This document shows, in pieces, positions 3,062-58,410 of a stretch of DNA of 64,000 bases. Every line of letters begins with the position of its first letter. Positions within the stretch are counted from its first letter, which is position 1. Location: contig CAJHZI010000207.1 in the NCBI GenBank assembly GCA_905160935.1, positions 1,116,001 through 1,180,000 of the forward strand, in the 5' to 3' direction. The notes below the pieces were generated by a model, which was not told where the DNA came from, did not search any database, and was given only the letters and a program-made list of their open reading frames with translations. Source of the DNA: Enchytraeus crypticus. Lineage: Eukaryota; Annelida; Clitellata; Enchytraeida; Enchytraeidae. The position numbers and the translations under genes were made by a program.

Positions 3062-6000
3062 ATAATAATAATAATAATAATAATAAAGGTTTAACGTCTG
3101 TTTCCTCATACAAAGATGATGTCAGGGACGTCATAGGCTAGATGTCGGATGTCAAGATGCTCAAAGAACTCAAAAATAGCTTGAATTGTTTATTCTTTCT
3201 CATTATTCTTTCTCTTTCTGTAATAGCTGCACGTATGTCAGTCGTATGAAACAACTAAATAATAACTGAGAAAGAATCTTCCTTTCTTAAGGTCCATGTT
3301 TCACATATCTAAAATAGCGTGATCCAAACCAAGGTTTTCACTATCTTTATCTCGTGTCTTTCTTTAGACCTTTTGTAAAAAGTTCTTTCTTATCACTAAA
3401 GGCCGCTTGTATAGCCGCTTAGGCCAGCATATTTCAGTCTCACATTTCCCGTCATCGGTTATAGTATGACCCAAATATTTGAAACTTCTTACCTGTTCTA
3501 AATTCGTTCCATTTATTGTGATACTAACTTCACCTTTATTGTTGGACACTCTCATTACTTTGGTCTTGTTGATGTTAATCTTCATGCCATATCTCAGTGA
3601 CGTATCATTCAGCGTATCCATTATCTTCTGCAGTCCAATCTCGCTGCCCGCTACCATTCCTTGGTCATCTGCAAATCGTACATCTTGTAACAATTTTCCT
3701 CCTACTTTTATTCCTTTTTCCATGTTTTTCATGGCTTCCTCCGTCATTGCCTCTGCGTAAATGTTAAACAGCAACCGCTAAATGCTACAACCTTACCTTA
3801 CTCCACGTCCTATTTCACCTTCCGCGTATTCCTGATGGATGTTGATTATTGCTCTTTGATTCATTTAACAGGTATCCTCTGTTAAACATTCTATCGCTAC
3901 ATCTCAAACCATGCTAGGCTTCTCGACTATTCCCGGCGATCATGGGCTGGAATTTGGTCCTGCGTCTTGCTCATTTTTCTCCAACCTGGACCAGTTTAAG
4001 GATTTTCTGTCCTCTAAGAAGGATGGTTTTGAGGAGTGTCTGCGCACCCTAAGCTCGCTGACCGATGTAGCGACTCAGCAGGAGGAAGAAAGTCTCTCTC
4101 GGAAAGGTTCCGGTGCTTCCTCTTTGGAACCTCTTGCTCCCAATCGTCACCCGTCCATCAGCTGGGAAGGAAGTCCCGCCGCCTTCGATTGCACCCTCGT
4201 TCCTAGCGGCGGAGCCTCTAAACAACCCGATTCTACGACATCCGTTATCCGTGTGTCCGGTGGGAGGGGTTTATCTAATAACGGGACGGGGTCTAGCACT
4301 AATAGTGACAGCGGAGGCGGAGTTAAGATGAGTTCAAAGAGTTCACTGAAGGTCAACAGTGCTGCCAGTAATCCAGTGTCAAACAACGTAAAGTTGAGAG
4401 TAGAGAGTTATAGCGATGAGTTGGGAACACTGGGGCAGGATATTCTGCAAACGCCTTCGTTTATAATGTTTATGAAGACCTGGGACTGCAAGGCTATTGT
4501 AACTGAAATGTTGGAGTACTATGCAGATCAGGTAGCAACATTTTCATCTTAATATTATATATGTGTTCTAGTAAATACTGTAAATAATTACAAACAAACT
4601 CTGTACTTGGCTTTAGTACTTGTAAGTGCTATCGTTATCGATAAATACAAACAATTACTATACATTATTTGAATACCATGGTCTTTCTGATCTAGATCTG
4701 ACTTCGTGGATGCTCAACTGTTACTGTCACTATGTATCATTCTGAAATCATCCTCGAAGGATAGATGATGTTCACTGTTAATCCTTTATTCTTTTAACTG
4801 CTGCTGTTGCTGCTAGAATGACGTTCAGGCTAACTGTTGTTATTGTTGTTGTTGTTAGAGTGGCGTTCATCTAAATGTTGTTGTTGTTGCTAGAATGACA
4901 TCCAGACTAACTGTTGTTGTTGTTGTTGTTGTTACTAGAATGACGTTTAAACTAACTGTTGTTATTGTTGTTGTTGCTAGAATGACGTTTAACTAAATGT
5001 AGTTGTTGTTGCTATTTCTTGTGACACCCAGACTAACTGTTGTTGTTTTTGCTTGAATAACGTCTAAACTCACTGTTGTTGTTGTTGCTGTTTTTGTTAG
5101 AATAACGTCTAGACTATTGTTCTTATTGTTGTTATTTCTAGAATGACGTCTAGACTAACTGTTGTTGTTGTTCTTATTTCTAGAATGACGTCTAGACTAA
5201 CTGTTGTTGTTGTTGTTGATAGAATGACGTATAGACTAACTGTTGTTGTTATTGATAGAATGACGTCTAGACTAAATGTTGTTGTTGTTGATAGAACGAC
5301 GTCCAGACTTACTGTTGTTGTTGTTGTTGATAGAATGACGTCCAAACTGCTGTCTCTATGGTCGTGGTGTTGGGTGAGGTCGTGTCAAATCTCTCAATCA
5401 CTAAGGAGCGACTCGAGCATTGGTTCTTTTCTTACGTAGGTTAGCGCCCCAGTTCAGTCTTAACACTGGCTTACCTTTAAATACTTGTTCGTTAAAATAA
5501 GCAATGCCAATAGTAAGACATAATAAAATAATAAAAATTAATTATTAAAATTAATATTTTTCAAAATTAATATTTTTAATTTCAAGAGGAAAATGTGAAT
5601 ATTTTTATATTGAGTCGCTAAGGACTGATTGATAAATCGCTGTTTACGAACCTGTTGTGTAGTGCAAGTGTGTATTTGTGTGCATAGAGTGTGGTGTCGA
5701 AGGGTATAGCTATATTAATTTTGAAGTCATTTGATGTTCAAATATGAAAAGTAAATTGATTGATTAGAAAAACAATTTTAAAAATAGCAAAACAATTATA
5801 AAAATAGCAAATGTATAAATATTGGATGGTATAGTTGATCCTTTTTGCAGAAAATCATTTTTAACTTTTACTGGAATCTTCAACTCATATCCGGATACTT
5901 ATAGAATTGTTTTGAGTTGACTTCAAAAGTGATCTGGTTCACCCTGACATCAAAACTTAGTATTCAATTTAATTGACTGATTATACTATTAAAAGATTAT

Positions 6001-7909
6001 ATTATTTCTATGCTTGGAAATCTACAAAAAAGCTTCAGCAGCGTGCAATCTCTCGCTCGTACCATAAGTAAATCTTTAACTACGACATTTAAGTTTCGTG
6101 GTATCACCGGACTGGCTTTCTTTAGGACCTTACTTCTCCTCAGCACATTTCTTTTGGTCTGGGTGAATTGATCTCTAGTGATGTGTGCTGTGGGGACGTC
6201 TCAATTAGGGGATTGGCTGGTGGTGTGGGTTAGGACAGAGAGAATTTGAGAGAAGTCTATTTGTATCCCGACCCTGGTTAAACTGGGATTTAAGAGATGA
6301 TGATGATTATTATTAGTATTATTATTAACCGACTGACTGATGGAATGATTTTGCGCGTAGATATATTAAGTAAGATGGAGTTGTGGAAGGAGGCGACGGA
6401 AGTGATAAACCTGTCCTGTGTGTCTGAGGTGAATCAGCTGTTGCTCACCTCCACCCAGATCTACACGTTCTGCTCAAGGTGCAGCAAGCCCTTGCTGAAG
6501 GCTGGCTGGACTTGTCAACGGTGTAACCAGTACATTCACAAGTGCTGCCTCTGGTTTGTCTCGTTCTACCTCTCTCTGTATTTAGCATTCAAGTGTGCGC
6601 CGTTCCTTAATCCTAAAGTATGATATATAGTGTGCACTTTTCCTTAACCAACGGTTATCCTGAAGAATGATATGTAGTATGCACTTTTCCTTAACCAACG
6701 GTTATCTTAAAGAATGATATGTAGTTTGCGCCGTTCCTTACCTAGCCGTTATCCTAAAGAATGATATGTAGTGTGCGCCGTTCCTTAACCAACGTTTATC
6801 CTGAAGAATGATATGTAGTTTGCGCCGTTCCTTAACTAGCCGTTATCCTAAAAAATGATATGTAGTGTGCGCCGTTCCTTAACCAACGTTTATCCTGAAG
6901 AATGATATGTAGTTTGCGCCGTTCCCTAGCCAACGGTTATCTTAAAGAATGATATGTAGTTTGCGCCGTTCCTTAACTAGCCGTTATCCTAAAGAATGAT
7001 ATGTAGTGTGCGCCGTTCCTTAACCAACGTTTATCCTGACGAATGATATGTAGTTTGTGCCGTTCCCTAGCCAACGGTTATCTTAAAGAATGATATGTAG
7101 TTTGCGCCGTTCCTTAACCAACGTTTATCCTGAAGAATGATATGTAGTTTGCGCCGTTCCCTAACCAACGGTTATCTTAAAGAATGATATGTAGTATGCG
7201 CTGTTCCTTACTAATGGTTATCCAAAGAATGTTATGTAGTGTGCGCCGTTCCTTAACCAACGGTTATCCTTAAGAATGATATGTAGTCTCTGCTGTTCCT
7301 TAACTGACTGTTATCCTAAAGAATGACACAGTATGTAATGTGTATGTTTTTCTGCCTGGACCCTGTAATTCATGATATTCTTATAAATCAGTCTCTTAGT
7401 GGGACGATAATTTAGTAGGACGGTAATTTAGTGGGAGTAATTTAGTGAGACGGTAATTTAGTGAGACGGTAATTTAGTGAGACGGTAATTTAGTGGAACG
7501 GTAAGTTAGTGGGACGGTAAGTTAGTGGAACGGTAATCTAGTGGGACGGTAATTTAGTGGGACGGTAAGTTAGTGGAACGGTAATTACTCTATGCATGAG
7601 ATACGTATTCGCAGACAGATGCCTGAGAGATGCATTGGCCACTTGGCAGTGCGCCAATTATTAAGAATTTAAATTTGTTCCTTCTTTGCCATTTTAGCGA
7701 GTCTATTTTTCTGTAGCATGTATGCGCTATGGTGCCGATGTTGTGTTGAGTGACGATGTTGTTGTTGTTTCAGTCACCTAGCAGTGAAGGGACTGTACAT
7801 TTGGTGTCAAGGGTGCGCTCACGGGGGTCATCCTGCCCATATGAAAGACTGGTTCAGCACGCACAGACAGTGCCCTACCGGATGTGGGCATGAGTGTGAA
7901 TACATGTGA
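1800..7909 (+). CDS. WDR24: WDR24-like GATOR2 subunit, C-terminal half
   Basis: GATOR2 relieves GATOR1 inhibition of TORC1 at the lysosome when amino acids are present. Five exons join in phase: 1800-2281, 3872-4531, 5334-5439, 6361-6553 and 7774-7909. The last three give a helical stretch (DVQTAVS, then LEHWFFSYVD), a zinc module (CSRC, CQRC) and a C-terminal ring-like module with WCQGC, HGGH, CPTGCGHEC and the ending CEYM. As recalled, the human WDR24 tail (WCQGCSHGGH and CGHLCEYS) matches this better than WDR59, which ends differently. The N-terminal WD40 repeats are not in the window and should lie to the left. The first two exons are low-complexity linker, tied to this gene by strand, order and phase rather than by recognised homology. 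Introns hold a SINE, LINE pieces and two minisatellites. Confidence 0.88.
2452..2583 (-). mobile_element. SINE family A copy in an intron
   Basis: On the minus strand it reads the A-box-like head, the GGGTTCAAATCC B box, GTCACTCCATAGC and GAAGAAACTGACACTAAT. It sits antisense in the WDR24-like intron. Confidence 0.75.
2930..3059 (+). mobile_element. 3' end of an RLE-type LINE with hairpin and poly(A)
   Basis: A perfect 13-bp stem at 2941-2953 and 2959-2971 has loop TTATC. It is followed by CTTTACACCGGGG and about 75 A residues. Nearly the same end follows the LINE fragment near 31.7 kb, which links this tail to that family. Confidence 0.65.
3060..3185 (-). mobile_element. LINE or SINE 3' tail with (TTA)n end
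   Basis: On the minus strand it reads GACGTCCCTGACATCAT, then GAGGAAACAGACGTTAAACC, then (TTA)n. It shares the tail of SINE family A and of the CR1/L2-like LINEs at 56 and 59.5 kb. A plus-strand copy lies at about 46640-46745. Confidence 0.5.
3364..3774 (-). pseudogene. RTE-like LINE reverse-transcriptase fragment
   Basis: An open frame of 136 codons carries part of a non-LTR reverse transcriptase: LFNIYAEAM, then the FADD catalytic box in RFADDQGMV, GMKININKTKVM and FKYLGHTITDDG. Endonuclease and N-terminal RT blocks are absent, so it is a dead fragment inside the WDR24-like intron. The clade (RTE-like) is inferred from recalled animal endonuclease-reverse transcriptases. Confidence 0.8.
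3872..4531 (+). CDS. WDR24: Ser/Gly-rich linker exon of the WDR24-like gene
   Basis: The acceptor TTCATTTAACAG precedes 220 in-frame codons that end GCAGATCAG before GTAGCA. Most is Ser/Gly/Asn-rich linker. The end (MFMKTWD, then VTEMLEYYADQ) is a helix leading into the DVQTAVS segment of the next exon, which matches the WDR24 layout (YYAEQGDVQ in human, from memory). The exon also codes for LDQFKDFLSS near its start, role unknown. Confidence 0.7.
4811..5345 (+). repeat. Minisatellite made of repeated 3' splice sites
   Basis: About 14 units of 35-50 bp, each with (GTT)n, then TAG, AATGACGTCTAGACT and a short spacer. The last unit is not just repeat: its GATAG and AATGACGTCCAAACT are the acceptor and first bases of the WDR24 exon at 5334. 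Thirteen upstream units therefore look like decoy acceptors. Frames on both strands stay open by repeat periodicity only. Confidence 0.88.
5334..5439 (+). CDS. WDR24: WDR24 exon after the splice-site array
   Basis: Thirty-five codons plus one base. It starts NDVQTAVSMVVVLG and ends LEHWFFSYV; the final G joins AT of the next exon to make Asp. It corresponds to the helical segment between the linker and the zinc modules of WDR24. Both joins keep frame. The start is set by the YYADQ-DVQTAVS match, because many similar AGs lie just upstream. Confidence 0.85.
6120..6305 (+). mobile_element. Retroelement 3' end with (ATG)n tail
   Basis: The segment TATCCCGACCCTGG, TTAAACTGGGATT and then an ATG run recurs at about 8925-8990 and in altered form at about 32905-32960. 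One shared end followed by a short-repeat tail suggests a retroelement 3' end; the family is not identified. Confidence 0.4.
6361..6553 (+). CDS. WDR24: WDR24 zinc-module exon
   Basis: Two bases complete the Asp codon, then 63 codons, then TG, which joins T of the last exon to give Cys. It codes for ILSKMELWKEA, a CSRC pair, GWTCQRC and HKCC. The acceptor GCGCGTAG has a poor pyrimidine tract, but the frame match on both sides supports it. Confidence 0.85.
6594..7335 (+). repeat. 47-bp minisatellite, about 15 copies
   Basis: The unit holds TGATATGTAGT, GCGCCGTTCCTTAAC and CGGTTATCCTAAAGAA. It starts 41 bp after the exon ending at 6553 and lies wholly in the last intron. Copies differ by a few substitutions. 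I see no coding content and no derivation from the exon. Confidence 0.9.
7400..7585 (+). repeat. 16-bp tandem repeat, about 12 copies
   Basis: The unit is GTGAGACGGTAATTTA with variants such as GTGGAACGGTAAGTTA. It lies in the same intron, about 65 bp after the 47-bp array. Confidence 0.9.
7774..7909 (+). CDS. WDR24: WDR24 terminal exon with ring-like zinc module
   Basis: After TTGTTTCAG the exon completes a Cys codon and gives HLAVKGLYIWCQGC, HGGH, a CPTGCGHEC cluster and the stop after CEYM. Cys and His spacing is intact, so zinc binding should be kept. WDR24 and WDR59 both end in such modules; the GHEC-EY ending favours WDR24. Confidence 0.92.
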
Positions 7910-40762: not shown

Positions 40763-41275
40763 TGAAGCATGTGACGCTCTCTAGTGAAGAGATTGAACTA
40801 CACTGTATGAAGCATGCTCTCCAGTGAAGAGATTGAACTACACTGTATGAAGCATGTGACGCTCTCTAGTGAAGAGATTGAACTACACTGTATGAAGCAT
40901 GCTCTCTAGTGAAGAGAATGAACTACACTATATGAAGCACGCTCTCTAGTGAAGAGAATGAACTACACTGTATGAAGCATGCCCTCCAGTGAAGAGATTG
41001 AACTACACTGTATGAAGCATGCTCTCTAATGAAGAGATTGAACTACACTGTATGAAGCATGCTCTCTAGTGAAGAGAATGAACTACACTGTATGAAGCAT
41101 GCTCTCTAGTGAAGAGAATGAACTACACTGTATGAAGCATGCTCTCTAGTGAAGAGATTGAACTACACTGTATGAAGCATGCTCTCTAGTGAAGAGAACT
41201 ACACTGTATGAAGCATGCTCTCTAGTGAAGAGATTGAACTACACTGTATGAAGCATGTGACGCTCTCTTGCAAAG
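40763..41275 (-). repeat. 40-bp minisatellite seeded by the phosphatase stop codon
   Basis: Twelve units of 40 bp (some 45 bp). On the minus strand each contains ATGCTTCATACAGTGTAG, which is the last coding segment and stop of the phosphatase gene. The unit next to the gene runs into the true coding end. The 45-bp units also keep GCGTCAC from further up the exon. Confidence 0.92.
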
Positions 41276-41346: not shown

Positions 41347-44340
41347 CTAAAGTACAATATCACAGATTATCTTATGAATTGTGAGATTTTAACATTCTTA
41401 GTTTTATTTATTTTGCAAACAAGTATTAACTTGATTGATACATATTTTATTGATGTATTTGCTTGTGCTTTCGAATGATGGAGGACAATGTTTGGGGTTG
41501 TGTATTTCGCTTGAGACGTTCTAGATATACCAGTATACTTCGAATGTGAAACCGGCGTTAACTCTTTATTTATTATATTGTGTCTCAGATCAACAAATTG
41601 TTGACATTATTAACAACAGAATACTGCATGTCAATTACAAGCATTACACTTGATCCAGAACGAGAATAATAAACGGTTATGACGTTTTCAATGCATCTCA
41701 AAATTCTTTGAAAATTTCTATGTAAACTTGTCTGAGTCAAAAAGACAAACATATATGAAAGCAAGATTGTGGCTGCCTATAATCAAACCCATATGAGGGT
41801 AAGATTTAGGGTGACCATAATGATAATAAAACATATGTGAGGGTAAGATTGAGGGTGTCTATAAAATAATCAAAAATTTATGAGTGTAAGATTGAGGGTG
41901 TCAATAAGATAATTAGACCTATACGAAGATTGAGGGTGCCTATAGTCTATAGGATAGACAAACCTTTATGAGTGTAAGATTAAGGGTGTCTATAAGATAG
42001 GCCACACAGAGGGTGGTGCTTCTGTTGATCCCCAGTTCGCAGTGGACCAGAACTTTACCCCCTCCCTTCTTTGCTCCATCTATATCCCGCCTCACACTGT
42101 CGTAGTGGCGCTCCAATATTTCATATCCTGGGGAGTCATCAGCCCCCACCAGAACATATCTATCCACTCCGCTTGCCTCAGCCGCCTCCTCGTTCACATC
42201 TCCAGTTCTTGTGCCCCTGAAAGATTGCAATAATAAACCGAAAGACTAATTTCGATTAAAGGAAGGATCTTCCTACCGGAAATAGCCTAATAATTATCGG
42301 AACCAGACATAATGTAGCACTTTGTTAGGGATTCTATCCATCACAGCCATTAGCAAGCTGTTCAGTGTATTAAATTTTATCACTGTCATCTGATTAAATG
42401 GATTAATGCACTCGCATTGCATATACTATAAAATAAGATATAAGTGTCAGGCCCTTGGACCTCATCACTACTGATATCCAGCCACGTTGCAATAAGTTAT
42501 AAATACAAAATTATATGTATAAAATATTATATCAATCTAAAATGTACTGCATTGTGATCACATTATTATTGCTACCTCAATATTGCTACCTTATTAGTCT
42601 TAATAAGGTATGCATAAGAACTTTAGTGTGCACCACGCTCCTGTACGGTTGCGAAACATGGACGTTAAAAAAGGTGGATATTCGAAAACTGGAAGCATTC
42701 AAAATGTGACAATGAAGAAAAATGAAGAAGATCAAATGAACTGACACAATTAAGAACGCAAAAATCTAAACTGATTGACAAAAATATGGAATTGATAAAT
42801 ATTATAGCGAATATAAAGAAGAAAGTGGTGGGGCACGAACTAAAAGGGAATGGTTTACTAAAAGAAATTGAAGGAAGAATGAAAGATAAAGTAAGAAGCT
42901 AGACCAAGACATGGGATTCTGGATGATATGACAACTTATTCTTATGTTGATTAGAAGAAATTAGTGGAGGATAGAAGGGTGTGGAGGAATGATATGCCAT
43001 GGACCTGCCAATAGGCACTGCACTAAGAGTGATTAATTTTCATCCAGTTATTTATGTGCGAAGTTCAAATCCTGGGCTCGCCCGTCACTGACATCGCTTT
43101 CGAGTGAGGAAACTGACATTAACATCAGCTTTACCAGCTTTTTTTAAATTTCTATTATTTTGAAACTTTAGTTACTCTTTTCAGTTACCCATTTTTGTTG
43201 TTCTCAACCCGTTCAATGATATCCTGCGGCAGCCTCGTGGCGCAGTTAATAATGTGAGTTATACCCAACCTTCTCAACAGCGGCAGACTGGAAGCATCCT
43301 GGGCGCTGCCCAGATATAGGTAGTCTGTTAATTGAGTCTGCGATAACAGAGCGACACACAAGTGCATTGTTGTTATATATGAAATTAATTGATAATTTAC
43401 TTTAATATAATCATCATCACTCGTTTGTTTCAGACAAAAATCCATAAGAATATAGTAAATGTCACAAAATTCCTAATTGCTAAGGCAGATCGAAGCATCC
43501 AGTGCAAGTATATTGCAGCACTTTTCCTGTCTCTAAACATTTTAGAAAATTAAGACAGCAATAATAAAATAGTTTATTTTAAAGTATTGCTTAAAGAGAA
43601 ATTACCAGTAACAGGTAAATTAATAGATAAATTCCAGTGCATTGCATCCATAATTATTGAGAATATATGATTTTTCCATTTATTCATACATTTTTGTTTT
43701 ATGGTGAAATCAAAGCGCGAAGATTATCACTGAATTTAATTTAAAATTCGCTAGGATTTATATTGCAATAAGAGGCTTCTACGTGTAGCAGTTGGATGCT
43801 CTTGGAAAATAAATATACTAAGCTGCTTGTTTCCTTTACGTGATGGATTGAAGCGAATAATGATGGATTGATTAAATGATTGACTGAATGACTCTTTGAA
43901 TGATTCAGTTAATTAATTATTCAATTACTTACTGATTGATTGACTGATTAAGCGATTAAATGTCTGGTTGAAGGACTGGTTTAAGGCTTGGTTGATTTAG
44001 CGACTGACTGTTTGATTGATTGATGAACCTAGCGCTAGATACAAATTCAATCCATCATTACACATGGACATCAATATATCATTACACATGGGCATCAATC
44101 CATCATTACACATGGATATCAATCCATCAATACACATAGAATATCCTTCCATATTATTACTGTAAATTGATTAATCGATTTTCTTGAAGCACTCACCGGT
44201 CCCAGATTTCTTAATGATGCTCCAGTTCTGGTAGTAAGGACGTCTCTGATTTTATTCAAATATTCATCTTCCTCTCTCCATTCATCCTTCACTTTAGCTT
44301 TGTCTACGTCACCAAACCTTCCAAGTATCGATGTCATCAT
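41239..44340 (-). CDS. Atypical dual-specificity phosphatase, complete
   Basis: Should remove phosphate from Tyr and Ser/Thr in proteins, or another phospho-substrate; the target is unknown. Coding exons on the minus strand: 44197-44340, 43189-43337, 41964-42216, 41239-41346. Joins are in phase with GT/AG ends and give 217 aa. It has the DSP start YLYLGS, GITHIINCA, the loop acid near ADDSPGY (Asp124/125), the P-loop HCELGINRST with Cys157 and Arg163, and the RPNILCNEGFRRQL end. There is no kinase-interaction domain, so it is atypical. All catalytic residues are kept. ATG at 44340 is the first of two Met codons; the frame is open for a few codons further up. Two arrays derive from its exon ends. 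Confidence 0.9.
41756..41963 (-). repeat. Degenerate array of a phosphatase exon end
   Basis: About five diverged units of 40-45 bp (plus strand: ATGAGTGTAAGATTGAGGG, TGTCTATAA) directly follow the donor of exon 3. The sixth and best unit is the exon end itself, coding YLIDTLNLTLIK. Confidence 0.8.
41964..42216 (-). CDS. Phosphatase exon 3, active site
   Basis: One base completes Gly, then 84 codons from GTRTGDVNEE through VGADDSPGYEILE and GKVLVHCELGINRST to TLIK before GTTTGT. Cys and Arg of the P-loop are present. Confidence 0.95.
42600..42985 (+). pseudogene. RTE-like LINE 3' fragment
   Basis: Frames read LLYGCETWTLKK, RKLEAFKM, then across shifts KIKWTD, VVGHELKGNGLLKEIEGR. These are the YGCETWT and GH-LR---LLKEI blocks at the C terminus of animal RTE-like reverse transcriptases. 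It lies in the phosphatase intron. Confidence 0.75.
43050..43143 (+). mobile_element. SINE family A, partial
   Basis: Starts at TATGTGCGAAGTTCAAATCC and keeps CGTCACTGACATCGC, GAGGAAACTGACATTAAC and CTTTACCAGC. It lies 45 bp from phosphatase exon 2, antisense. Confidence 0.75.
43189..43337 (-). CDS. Phosphatase exon 2
   Basis: TQLTDYLYLGSAQDASSLP, then LGITHIINCATRLPQDI and a GG end before GTAACT. It is the DSP substrate-recognition and beta-sheet start. Confidence 0.92.
43450..44196. other. Intron of the phosphatase gene
   Basis: AT-rich; GATTGA-type short repeats at about 43850-44030 and a 24-bp repeat (ATTACACATGG, CATCAATCCATC) at about 44050-44140. No exon is seen. Confidence 0.5.
44197..44340 (-). 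CDS. Phosphatase exon 1
   Basis: Forty-eight codons, MMTSILGRFGDVDKAK, then DEWREEDEYLNKIRDVL and SLRNLGP before GTGAGT. It is a charged N-terminal extension before the catalytic domain, with no domain I know. Confidence 0.75.
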
Positions 44341-55539: not shown

Positions 55540-55917
55540 TTATTCCACCTTCAGCATAAGTTGACTGAATCCATCCTCTGAGACCTGGCTGCCCGCACGT
55601 TGAACAACGGAGTTCTCTGCGTGAACACTGGAGGTCACACCACCAGGTCTAGCTGTCACGTCACGCAGCTGTCGTTGCTGCTGCAGTCTCAGCTGCTGTT
55701 GTCTTTGTTGCTGCTGAATTAGCTGAAGTCGCTGTTCCTGCTGCTGCCGCTGTTGATGCTGCTGCTGTTGTTGCTGTTGTTGTTGTTGGTCTCTAGTTGT
55801 TTTTGATAAATTATTTACACTCTCTTCGTCTGTAGAAGATGCAGTACGGTACATGACCTTGGCTCTGTCGTTCAATTTCTTGTTCTTCATTCTTCGATTC
55901 TGAAACCAAACTTTTAC
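55540..55917 (-). CDS. Post2: Post2-type exon with recognition helix and poly-Gln
   Basis: Begins VKVWFQNRRMKNKKL after ATTTTCAG, then a Ser/Asn part, a Gln-rich stretch of about 45 residues with His, Arg and Leu breaks, and ends LMLKVE. The stop TAA lies inside GGAATAAAATA, so an AATAAA overlaps the stop codon; whether it is used as a poly(A) signal is unknown. Confidence 0.88.
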   Translation of the reverse strand, partial: VKVWFQNRRMKNKKLNDRAKVMYRTASSTDEESVNNLSKTTRDQQQQQQQQQQHQQRQQQEQRLQLIQQQQRQQQLRLQQQRQLRDVTARPGGVTSSVHAENSVVQRAGSQVSEDGFSQLMLKVE

Positions 55918-57449
55918 CTGAAAATAAATCGAAGGAAATCAATCAATTAAATGTATCTAGTAATGAAAAGAAATGAAAAGCTGTTGTTATTAAATCAGAT
56001 TATACGAATGGCGGACGCTATATATCAAGATTTAAAATGTAAAAATGTCATAAAATCGCGGTTTTTATTTGCTAATGGATAAATAAATCAATCAAGCAAT
56101 CAATATGAATTTAAAGTCCGGTTTCTCTCCATAAACAATATCAGGGACGTCTCAGGCAGACTCTTCCTCGACAGATGTCAAAGCACCAGGCGATGACGCC
56201 TGCGAATAAAGGCCGCAGAAAAAACCAGATCAACATAGTGCAAGTCCATGGTTCGAGGCAAGTGAGTCAGAATATTGACCTATGGTGGGGAAAGATGGGT
56301 TTTTGTCTTGCCCATGAAAGTGCTAATACCATTACTGGTTCGAAGATCTTGTGACAGAGAATTCCATATAGCTGGAGCAGAAAACATGAAGAAGCGTCTG
56401 ACAATGGCTGATCTAATGTCCGGTAGGCCTACAGTAAGAAATTTTTAACTGTAAGAAATATATGTTGTAAGCGCAGTTTATATTCCAATTTAATGATAAC
56501 ATGGCTATCGATTCCATATAAACCGTAATGATTTTAACTAGGTTTTAAAGATTTTAAAAACCTCTAAGGAGGTTTTGACTGTAAGAAATATATGTTGTTG
56601 GCGCAGTTTACATTTTACAATATATGCTGTTGGCGCAGTTTACAATTTCGCTAACTCGATTGAGTGATGGATTCAATGCTTAATTTAATGAGTAATTATT
56701 AATTTCAAACTTGATTTTCTTTAAGAGCTTGATTGATTGCTTAATTGATTGATTAATTGATTGATTAATTGATTGACTAATTGAATGATTAATAGTTTTA
56801 ACGAACAGTAGAGTTATTTTAGCCGTCACACATTTTCTGTTCATACATGAATATATTTTGTGAGTATTAATACAATTCAAAGCTACTGCCAAATCTTTCT
56901 CATAAATTGTTTAATCTGTGTGGCTCTTTCTTAGCTTTAAGTACACTCCAAGTATTTATTAGTGTATAAATTGATTAACTGATTTCTTACTTGTTCGCTT
57001 GCTTGATTAATAATTGATTTAGTGATTGATAGATTCATTCATTGAATGATTTAGTGAATTAAATTGAGTGAGTCAACGACCGAGCGATTCAGCGAGTCAG
57101 TGATCGATAGATCCATTAATTGACAACTTGATTAACCGATGACTAATGAATTGATTTAAATTTTGCTGACTTATTGATCTCTGGATTGATAGATTTATTC
57201 GATGATTCAATGATTTATTGATTGCTTGGCAGACCTGTCTCTCAGATAATTGAAGCTGTATGGCTAGTTGCCACCTCTTTTGTCTGGTAATGTACCCACT
57301 CTGAGTATACTCGCTCTCCAGCACGACGCTCTGGTAGCGGGTGTAGGGTTTTCTCTTCTTACGTTCTCGAGTTCTGCTGCCACTGCACGCACCCACCCCT
57401 GCCCCTGAGCCCATAGGCCCCATCAGCGACCCGCCACACAGTCCATTTC
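55540..57449 (-). CDS. Post2: Post2-type posterior Hox gene, last two exons
   Basis: A DNA-binding transcription factor of the posterior Hox class. Exons 57235-57449 and 55540-55917 join in phase. The homeodomain starts in RKKRKPYTRYQ and has L16, Y20, W48, F49, Q50, N51 and R53. TRYQ, YITRQKRW and VKVWFQNRRMKNKKL are the Post2-like signs as recalled from annelids and molluscs. The intron splits the domain between Q44 and V45. Helix 2 (LAIQLQL in place of the usual ISCKLHL-like) is diverged. Upstream is a Gly-rich segment after the acceptor TTTCGCAG with two bases of a split codon, so at least one 5' exon is missing here. Downstream is a Gln-rich tail. Post1 or another posterior class is less likely. 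Confidence 0.85.
56105..56440 (-). mobile_element. CR1/L2-like LINE 3' end
   Basis: Same 3' region as the LINE at 59455: minus-strand FMFSAPAIWNSLSQDLR-type frame, then the 3' UTR ending GGACTTTAAATTCATATTGA with an ATTG-type tail. It lies in the Post2-type intron. Confidence 0.75.
56690..57230. repeat. ATTG/GATT-rich simple sequence
   Basis: Runs of TTGATTGATTAATTGATT-like sequence in two blocks (about 56730-56790 and 56990-57220) up to the donor of the homeobox exon. They explain the Ser/Ile/Asn/Gln minus-strand frames. Confidence 0.7.
57235..57449 (-). CDS. Post2: Post2-type exon with helices 1 and 2
   Basis: Two bases, then GNGLCGGSLMGPMGSGAGVG, a basic RTRERKKRKP arm, YTRYQSVVLESEY, ITRQKRW and LSERQ before GTCTGC. 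The internal Met at 57423 is not needed as a start because the frame is open back to a good acceptor. Confidence 0.88.
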
Positions 57450-57689
57450 CTGCGAAATAAGATAAGTTTTAGTTAAAAACGGAGTTCTAGATAGTATCAA
57501 TTCACATTTAGCATCAAATATATACAAGAAAGATTAGTGAAGCTTTCAGTCCTGAAAGTATAAGAAATGTTTTACATTTCAATTAGGATGTCAATGGACA
57601 AATTAGCTTTAGTATTAATATGACAAAATAAGTAATTGGAACACAAACGTGAATTGTATTATTGGTTAATAATAATAACTAATTAATAA

Positions 57690-57822: not shown

Positions 57823-57947
57823 TTTTAATTAATTTTTATTTACATCAACATATTAGTTCTCAAGCTCTCGTGGCCGGAGTCGACGCTGCTTCTAATTGTC
57901 GAGATCAGAAACTCCACTTAGCGAATCATTGCCCAGTAATTCTCGTG

Positions 57948-58190
57948 AGATCAACAGTAGACATTACAGTAATTCTAGTGTAATCAACAATAGACATTAC
58001 AGTAATTCTAGTGTAATCAACAATAGACATTACAGTAATTCTAGTGTAATCAACAATAGACATTACAGTAATTCTAGTGTAATCAACAATAGACATTACA
58101 GTAATTCTAGTGTAGTCAACAATAGACAATACAGTAATTCTATTGTAATCAATAATAGTCACCACAGTAATTCTATAGTATAATCATCAA
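57948..58190. repeat. 33-bp minisatellite, about 7 good copies
   Basis: The unit is ATTACAGTAATTCTAG, TGTAATCAACAATAGAC; decayed units go on to about 58410. Frames on both strands are open because 33 is a multiple of three. Confidence 0.9.
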
Positions 58191-58410
58191 CATCATTAAA
58201 GTAATACTAGTGTAATCACCAAAAGTACTACAGTAATTCTATAGTATAATACAAACAGTCATTACAGTAATCCTAGAGCAGTGAACAATTGTTATTGCAG
58301 TATTCCTAGTGTTGACGAAATAATAATTAAAGTAATCGAAGTGTAGTAAACAAGAATCGTTACAGTAATTTTGGTGTAGTCATCAGTAGTCATTACAGTC
58401 ATATAGTCTA

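Follow-up and report, generated by a model that had tools for sequence, protein, structure and literature searches.

The question raised by this locus is whether a minisatellite can be seeded by a gene's own 3' splice site, and how the gene keeps working with a row of near-copies of that site in front of its exon. The gene is WDR24, which lies on the forward strand of the window (the whole 64,000-nt stretch of Enchytraeus crypticus DNA analysed here, with a G+C content of 35%).

The WDR24 exon edge and its array

The exon edge was placed by translation and by comparison with human WDR24. The exon before the array (3872-4531, + strand) ends in phase 0 with a donor GT at 4532, and the junction 4531/5334, also in phase 0, joins ...EMLEYYADQ to NDVQTAVSMVVVLGE... 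When the joined exons were aligned to human WDR24 (7uhy_C, residues 636-744), which was the sole outgroup in the comparison, an E-value of 1.1e-24 was obtained and the alignment crossed the junction free of gaps (YYADQ/NDVQTAVS). The exon after the array (5334-5439, + strand) begins with the codons AAT GAC GTC CAA ACT (NDVQT), of which D, V and Q are common to human WDR24. By homology, position 5334 is read as the exon start, preceded by the true acceptor TAG at 5331-5333, and the true junction would be the terminal copy of the array, joined to the exon body. The following exon (6361-6553, + strand), recognised by translation and alignment, continues the frame, and its 3' end comes from a reading of the sequence. 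The last exon (7774-7909, + strand), whose acceptor is preceded by a GTT tract, was read by eye and presumably encodes the end of WDR24, to which we take it to be similar.

Upstream of the exon at 3872-4531, the reverse strand of the window carries a reverse transcriptase fragment at 3364-3777 (Pfam RVT_1, E=1e-08). The last WDR24 intron contains two minisatellites on the forward strand, at 6610-7326 (47-nt unit, 15 copies) and 7396-7586 (16-nt unit, 12 copies), and no exon sequence was seen by eye in their units. Searches of the whole window with Rfam and ARAGORN gave no matches.

The final 537 nt of the intron between the exons at 3872-4531 and 5334-5439 are minisatellite (4797-5333, + strand). 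The array comprises 12 clear units and a decayed one, built of a branch-like motif, a GTT-rich tract, TAG and a copy of about the first 15 nt of the exon, and the tandem units therefore combine intron and exon sequence over one splice junction. Tandem Repeats Finder reported overlapping rows within 4795-5342, with periods of 36, 42 (two rows), 75 and 203 nt. Using the anchor TAGAATGACGTC, 13 sites that agree at 9 or more of the 12 positions were located from 4814 to 5331, the last of which is the exon edge itself, where TAG at 5331-5333 is followed by AATGACGTCCAAACT. The sites are spaced 35-45 nt apart, save for one 75-nt gap that holds the decayed unit (5016-5052, + strand), in which the AG has been lost. 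The AG is kept in 11 of the 12 listed upstream units, the unit at 5053, which is one of the 12 clear ones, having TTG in place of TAG. Seven of the 12 units match the exon start at 13 of 15 bases. Where the exon has CAA, units 1, 3 and 12 have CAG and units 4-11 have TAA or TAG, a pattern that would arise if a single altered copy had multiplied through the interior of the array without reaching the edge units. BLAST of the array revealed a single copy of it in the whole assembly.

A yUnAy branch-like motif with no AG between it and the AG position was present in 12 of the 13 modules including the true one (11 of the 12 upstream), the nearest such motif lying 16-28 nt from the AG position; CTAAC occurs in seven modules, and in unit 12 all branch-like candidates have an intervening AG. 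For the true site, the motif scan points to the A at 5311 (+ strand; CTTAC, 22 nt from the AG) as the most likely branch point. This candidate lies within the last array unit and, on this reading of motifs, the working splice signals of WDR24 seem to be array sequence themselves.

Origin of the array

Does the array belong to a repeat that is found elsewhere? Outside positions 4750-5345, 34 places on both strands of the window match the anchor 12-mer at 9 of 12 bases, and none at 10 or more. A search of the 524-Mb assembly for the 23-nt unit core, allowing three mismatches at most, found it eight times in the array and three times elsewhere, against four for the reversed control; a shared genomic or interspersed repeat or a satellite family was therefore rejected. 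BLAST of the whole array yielded 43 other matches at 65-77%. Seven of these loci were fetched, and no core match of 15 of 23 was present within the matched part; a single match of this kind, at locus L006, falls outside it. Six of the BLAST-matched stretches were read, and all are other GTT- or AAC-rich minisatellites.

Since the core does not exceed its reversed control elsewhere in the genome, the exon edge most likely preceded the array and seeded it, and since D, V and Q are common to human WDR24, the coding sequence should predate the array; we consider this order well supported. The opposite order, in which the repeat is the older of the two and supplied the exon edge, can draw on the GTT-rich minisatellites present at other places in the genome and on the seven units with 13 of the 15 exon-start bases, which fit either order. 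It is, however, hardly credible in view of the scarcity of the core beyond the array and of exon codons that give residues common to human WDR24 in the same place.

The preliminary description had taken the array for copies of the gene's own 3' splice site that form a row of decoy acceptors. Its coordinates, its unit count (12 clear and one decayed, then the true edge) and the exon start at 5334 hold, and the acceptors are intact in that 11 of the 12 listed units retain the AG. It had also regarded the exon boundary as the seed of the minisatellite, and sharing of the array with unrelated loci as evidence to the contrary; no such sharing came to light in the genome-wide core search, in the BLAST results or in the loci that were read, and the seeding is well supported by a core local to the array and by the residues common to the human protein.

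Arrays at other exon edges

The window contains two further cases, both on the reverse strand in one dual-specificity phosphatase gene, whose exons (joined by eye) match Pfam DSPc with 94.5 bits (E=6.2e-27). A donor-edge array (41746-41999) is found where the exon end ...IDTLNLTLIK is followed by GTTTG, and consists of the true donor and five copies after it, the sixth copy being doubtful. The other array (40776-41257) has a 40-nt unit in 12 copies, starts in the last codons of the gene and spans the stop codon TAG at 41241-41239. The core of the donor array matched three places outside the array at 20 or more of 32 bases; ten shuffled cores gave 0 to 3, so that these outside matches are at chance level. 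On the same strand, at 55540-57468, there is a homeobox gene with its homeodomain over two reading frames (Pfam Homeodomain; E=1.7e-09, and a second match just under the cut-off at E=8e-05), the residues of which look posterior-Hox-like to us. In the array near this gene (57934-58399), no exon edge was seen by eye.

Recurrence in the genome was sampled by protein family, using profile matches to Pkinase (L020-L069) and Myosin_head (L072-L095). The kinase set comprised 50 loci holding 54 of 137 matches (the 30 best plus 20 regions next in rank, one look-alike being skipped), and many of its matches lie in long open frames with few introns. The myosin set comprised 24 loci holding 31 of 81 matches, which were taken from the upper ranking, with some skipped, and chosen before the sequence was seen. 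L039, where the locus was cut, was left out of the counts, which then covered 84 exon matches at 73 loci. An array was counted when its period was at least 20 nt and it fulfilled a fixed overlap with the edge of a profile match, this edge standing in for that of the transcript.

Arrays lie across the match edge at 9 of the 84 exon matches, and in all nine the splice edge was read by eye within the unit. Five are on the donor side (L026, L058, L075, L088 and L093) and four on the acceptor side (L027, L046, L047 and L087); L046 and L047 are paralogues, which leaves eight independent cases. Near-edge arrays at L022, L031, L033, L077 and L083 were left uncounted, and L092, a decayed acceptor case by eye, fails the overlap rule and stands outside the nine. 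Exon-edge arrays are hence not peculiar to WDR24 and recur in this genome. In L024, a 39-nt repeat with 2.1 copies and 100% matches lies inside the kinase match (1522-1601). The mitochondrial contig (C802) carries cox1 (PF00115, E=2.7e-127), and was read by eye with table 5 as nad3-nad2-cox1-cox2-atp8-cox3, atp8 being followed by cox3 and not by atp6; we take this to be the common annelid order. Amphioxus was set aside as the host in view of the genetic code and this gene arrangement. ARAGORN found no tRNA on this contig, and the tRNAs between its genes were read by eye.

Random placement of the same 79 arrays gave 5.59 expected edge cases against the nine observed (P=0.092; kinases alone, P=0.18; myosins alone, P=0.255), and a targeting of exon edges by minisatellites is not shown by these figures. 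They indicate that edges are not avoided, as tolerance of the arrays would have it, and that they are not clearly sought, as would be expected of by-catch. Among kinase arrays with a period of at least 40 nt, 5 of 21 lie over an edge against 1.9 expected (P=0.032, with a looser overlap rule for two arrays that have a higher-order period), and at a period of at least 30 nt, 5 of 30 against 2.3 (P=0.079). The excess in the longer-period class counts against pure by-catch, and some targeting could take place.

The state of the decoys was compared across arrays. The script listed 45 decoys in 10 arrays, with GT or AG in 41 of 45 and a stop reached from all 45; copies with more than 40% mismatch had been dropped from the list, so that decayed decoys are under-counted in it. 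When the decoy of L087 is added, GT or AG is kept in 42 of 46 and a stop follows in 45 of 46, including all 12 listed decoys of WDR24. The exception is this myosin array (L087, 449-502), which has one intact decoy acceptor, the use of which would add 54 nt, that is, 18 residues in frame and free of stops. Not every array is therefore harmless by truncation. The paralogous kinases L046 and L047, which are identical at 422 of 480 exon bases, have six and two listed decoys at the same edge, and this difference suggests that copy number changed after the two genes parted, or that each array grew independently. Upstream of the exon start in L046 (reverse strand) and L047, several of the decoy acceptors have the sequence CAG/GTAATTGG or a similar one, the acceptor being joined directly to a donor-like start, and we take these joins to resemble zero-length recursive splice sites.

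Decoy use, rival readings and known systems

In WDR24, each of the 22 upstream AGs, counted from 4815, would bring a stop codon into the reading frame: for 21 of them it falls within the insert, and for the remaining one (5111) it is met where the exon is read in a shifted frame. Since the intron is in phase 0 and ends in TAG, any insert that keeps the frame reads UAG at 5331-5333. The insertion of short peptides, which the preliminary description had considered, consequently fails for this gene. Judging from the reading frames, decoy use would truncate the protein and, given two more exon junctions downstream, the message would probably decay.

Taken together, we think it quite probable that the array is an exon-edge minisatellite (a "mirage"), a by-catch of a minisatellite-prone genome, and tolerated since splicing uses the copy attached to the exon. 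In a genome that generates many minisatellites, a segment of about 40 nt, with the branch point at one end, the acceptor inside it and roughly the fifth exon codon at the other end, would have been duplicated in tandem. Our guess is that the first duplication arose by slippage between tracts of simple sequence and exon bases resembling them; the distal end of the intron and the exon have, for example, AACTGCTG in common. The copies would then have spread and diverged through further slippage or unequal exchange. The copy that adjoins the exon body would most likely be the one picked by the spliceosome; the upstream copies would be decoys that are largely ignored, the array being presumably neutral. 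Whenever an edge is duplicated, one copy stays attached to the exon body, and WDR24 would thus go on working.

Two functional readings were weighed against this one. The tandem acceptors could be regulatory, diverting part of the WDR24 transcripts to decaying isoforms that contain stops, with copy number setting the dose. The retention of the AG in 11 of the 12 listed upstream units, the presence in 11 of 12 upstream modules of a branch-like motif that precedes the AG position by 16-28 nt without an intervening AG, and the stop reached from all 22 upstream AGs would all suit such a role. Unrelated genes, however, carry similar arrays about as often as random placement would produce, so that no gene-specific selection is seen, and the amphioxus mirages are reported to leave splicing undisturbed (PMC3087553, PMC3902484); we judge a regulatory role improbable. 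Much less probable still is that the array serves as raw material for a new exon or intron position, as proposed for the amphioxus globins (PMC3087553). The units do carry apparently complete acceptors, and arrays spanning an edge occur at 9 of 84 sampled exon matches, but none of the WDR24 upstream AGs from 4815 on opens a frame through the exon, and none of the units is known to be used.

We give somewhat less than an even chance to a broader reading: tandem, near-identical splice sites at exon edges would be pervasive in this genome (about a tenth of coding exons), so that the choice among them would depend on attachment to the exon body instead of on the sequence of the site itself, and the arrays would form a standing store of decoys, variable in copy number and in part with an open frame, that could give rise to new isoforms and introns. 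Competition between duplicated splice sites was reportedly studied by Reed and Maniatis in 1986 with built constructs. Here, the duplicated elements (branch site, tract, acceptor and exon start) stand in natural genes, in as many as a dozen copies in a row, and offer a natural test of splice-site choice, in which transcripts would tell whether the first-made site, the last one or the one joined to the exon body wins. The matter bears on the origin of introns, on the prediction of genes in genomes of this kind and on the tolerance of repeats in genes.

The creation of introns from tandem arrays or internal duplications was reportedly described by Zhuo (2007) and by Gao and Lynch (2009). What these reported cases and WDR24 have in common is the tandem duplication of splice-site sequence; unlike them, WDR24 is without sign of a new intron. 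In human genes of segmental duplications, minisatellite units averaging about 30 bp at exon-intron boundaries can create new introns (PMC2812944); those repeats are in recent paralogues with transcript evidence, whereas WDR24 is a conserved gene known here from DNA alone. A repeat in an intron of dog LHX3 was set aside as a comparison, its source being concerned with intron length.

The closest counterparts are the mirages of amphioxus, described as minisatellite-like tandem duplications of exon-intron boundaries in the globin genes BflGb6 and BflGb9 and in Adh3 (PMC3087553), and also in PGBD5 and troponin C (PMC3902484). They occur on either side of the exon, many copies keep AG or GT, and splicing is reportedly undisturbed (PMC3087553, PMC3902484). 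In structure, the WDR24 array can be classed with them: its copies lie in tandem over an exon/intron boundary, many with the splice dinucleotide, and its homogenised interior units are flanked by distinct edge units, as reported for amphioxus (PMC3087553). The same source gives six and three units for the two BflGb6 haplotypes, fewer than the 13 found here upstream of the edge in WDR24. Judging by titles and the openings of abstracts in the open-licence literature, no report was found of exon-edge arrays in annelids or of a genome-wide count of them. The present case adds an annelid as host, a long array within a core nutrient-sensing gene, and a first estimate, if a rough one, of how often such arrays occur. 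The host is an annelid instead of amphioxus, and with edge-spanning arrays at 9 of 84 exon matches in its genome sample, this suggests that a structure known from only a few genes of amphioxus can be widespread in an animal of a different phylum.
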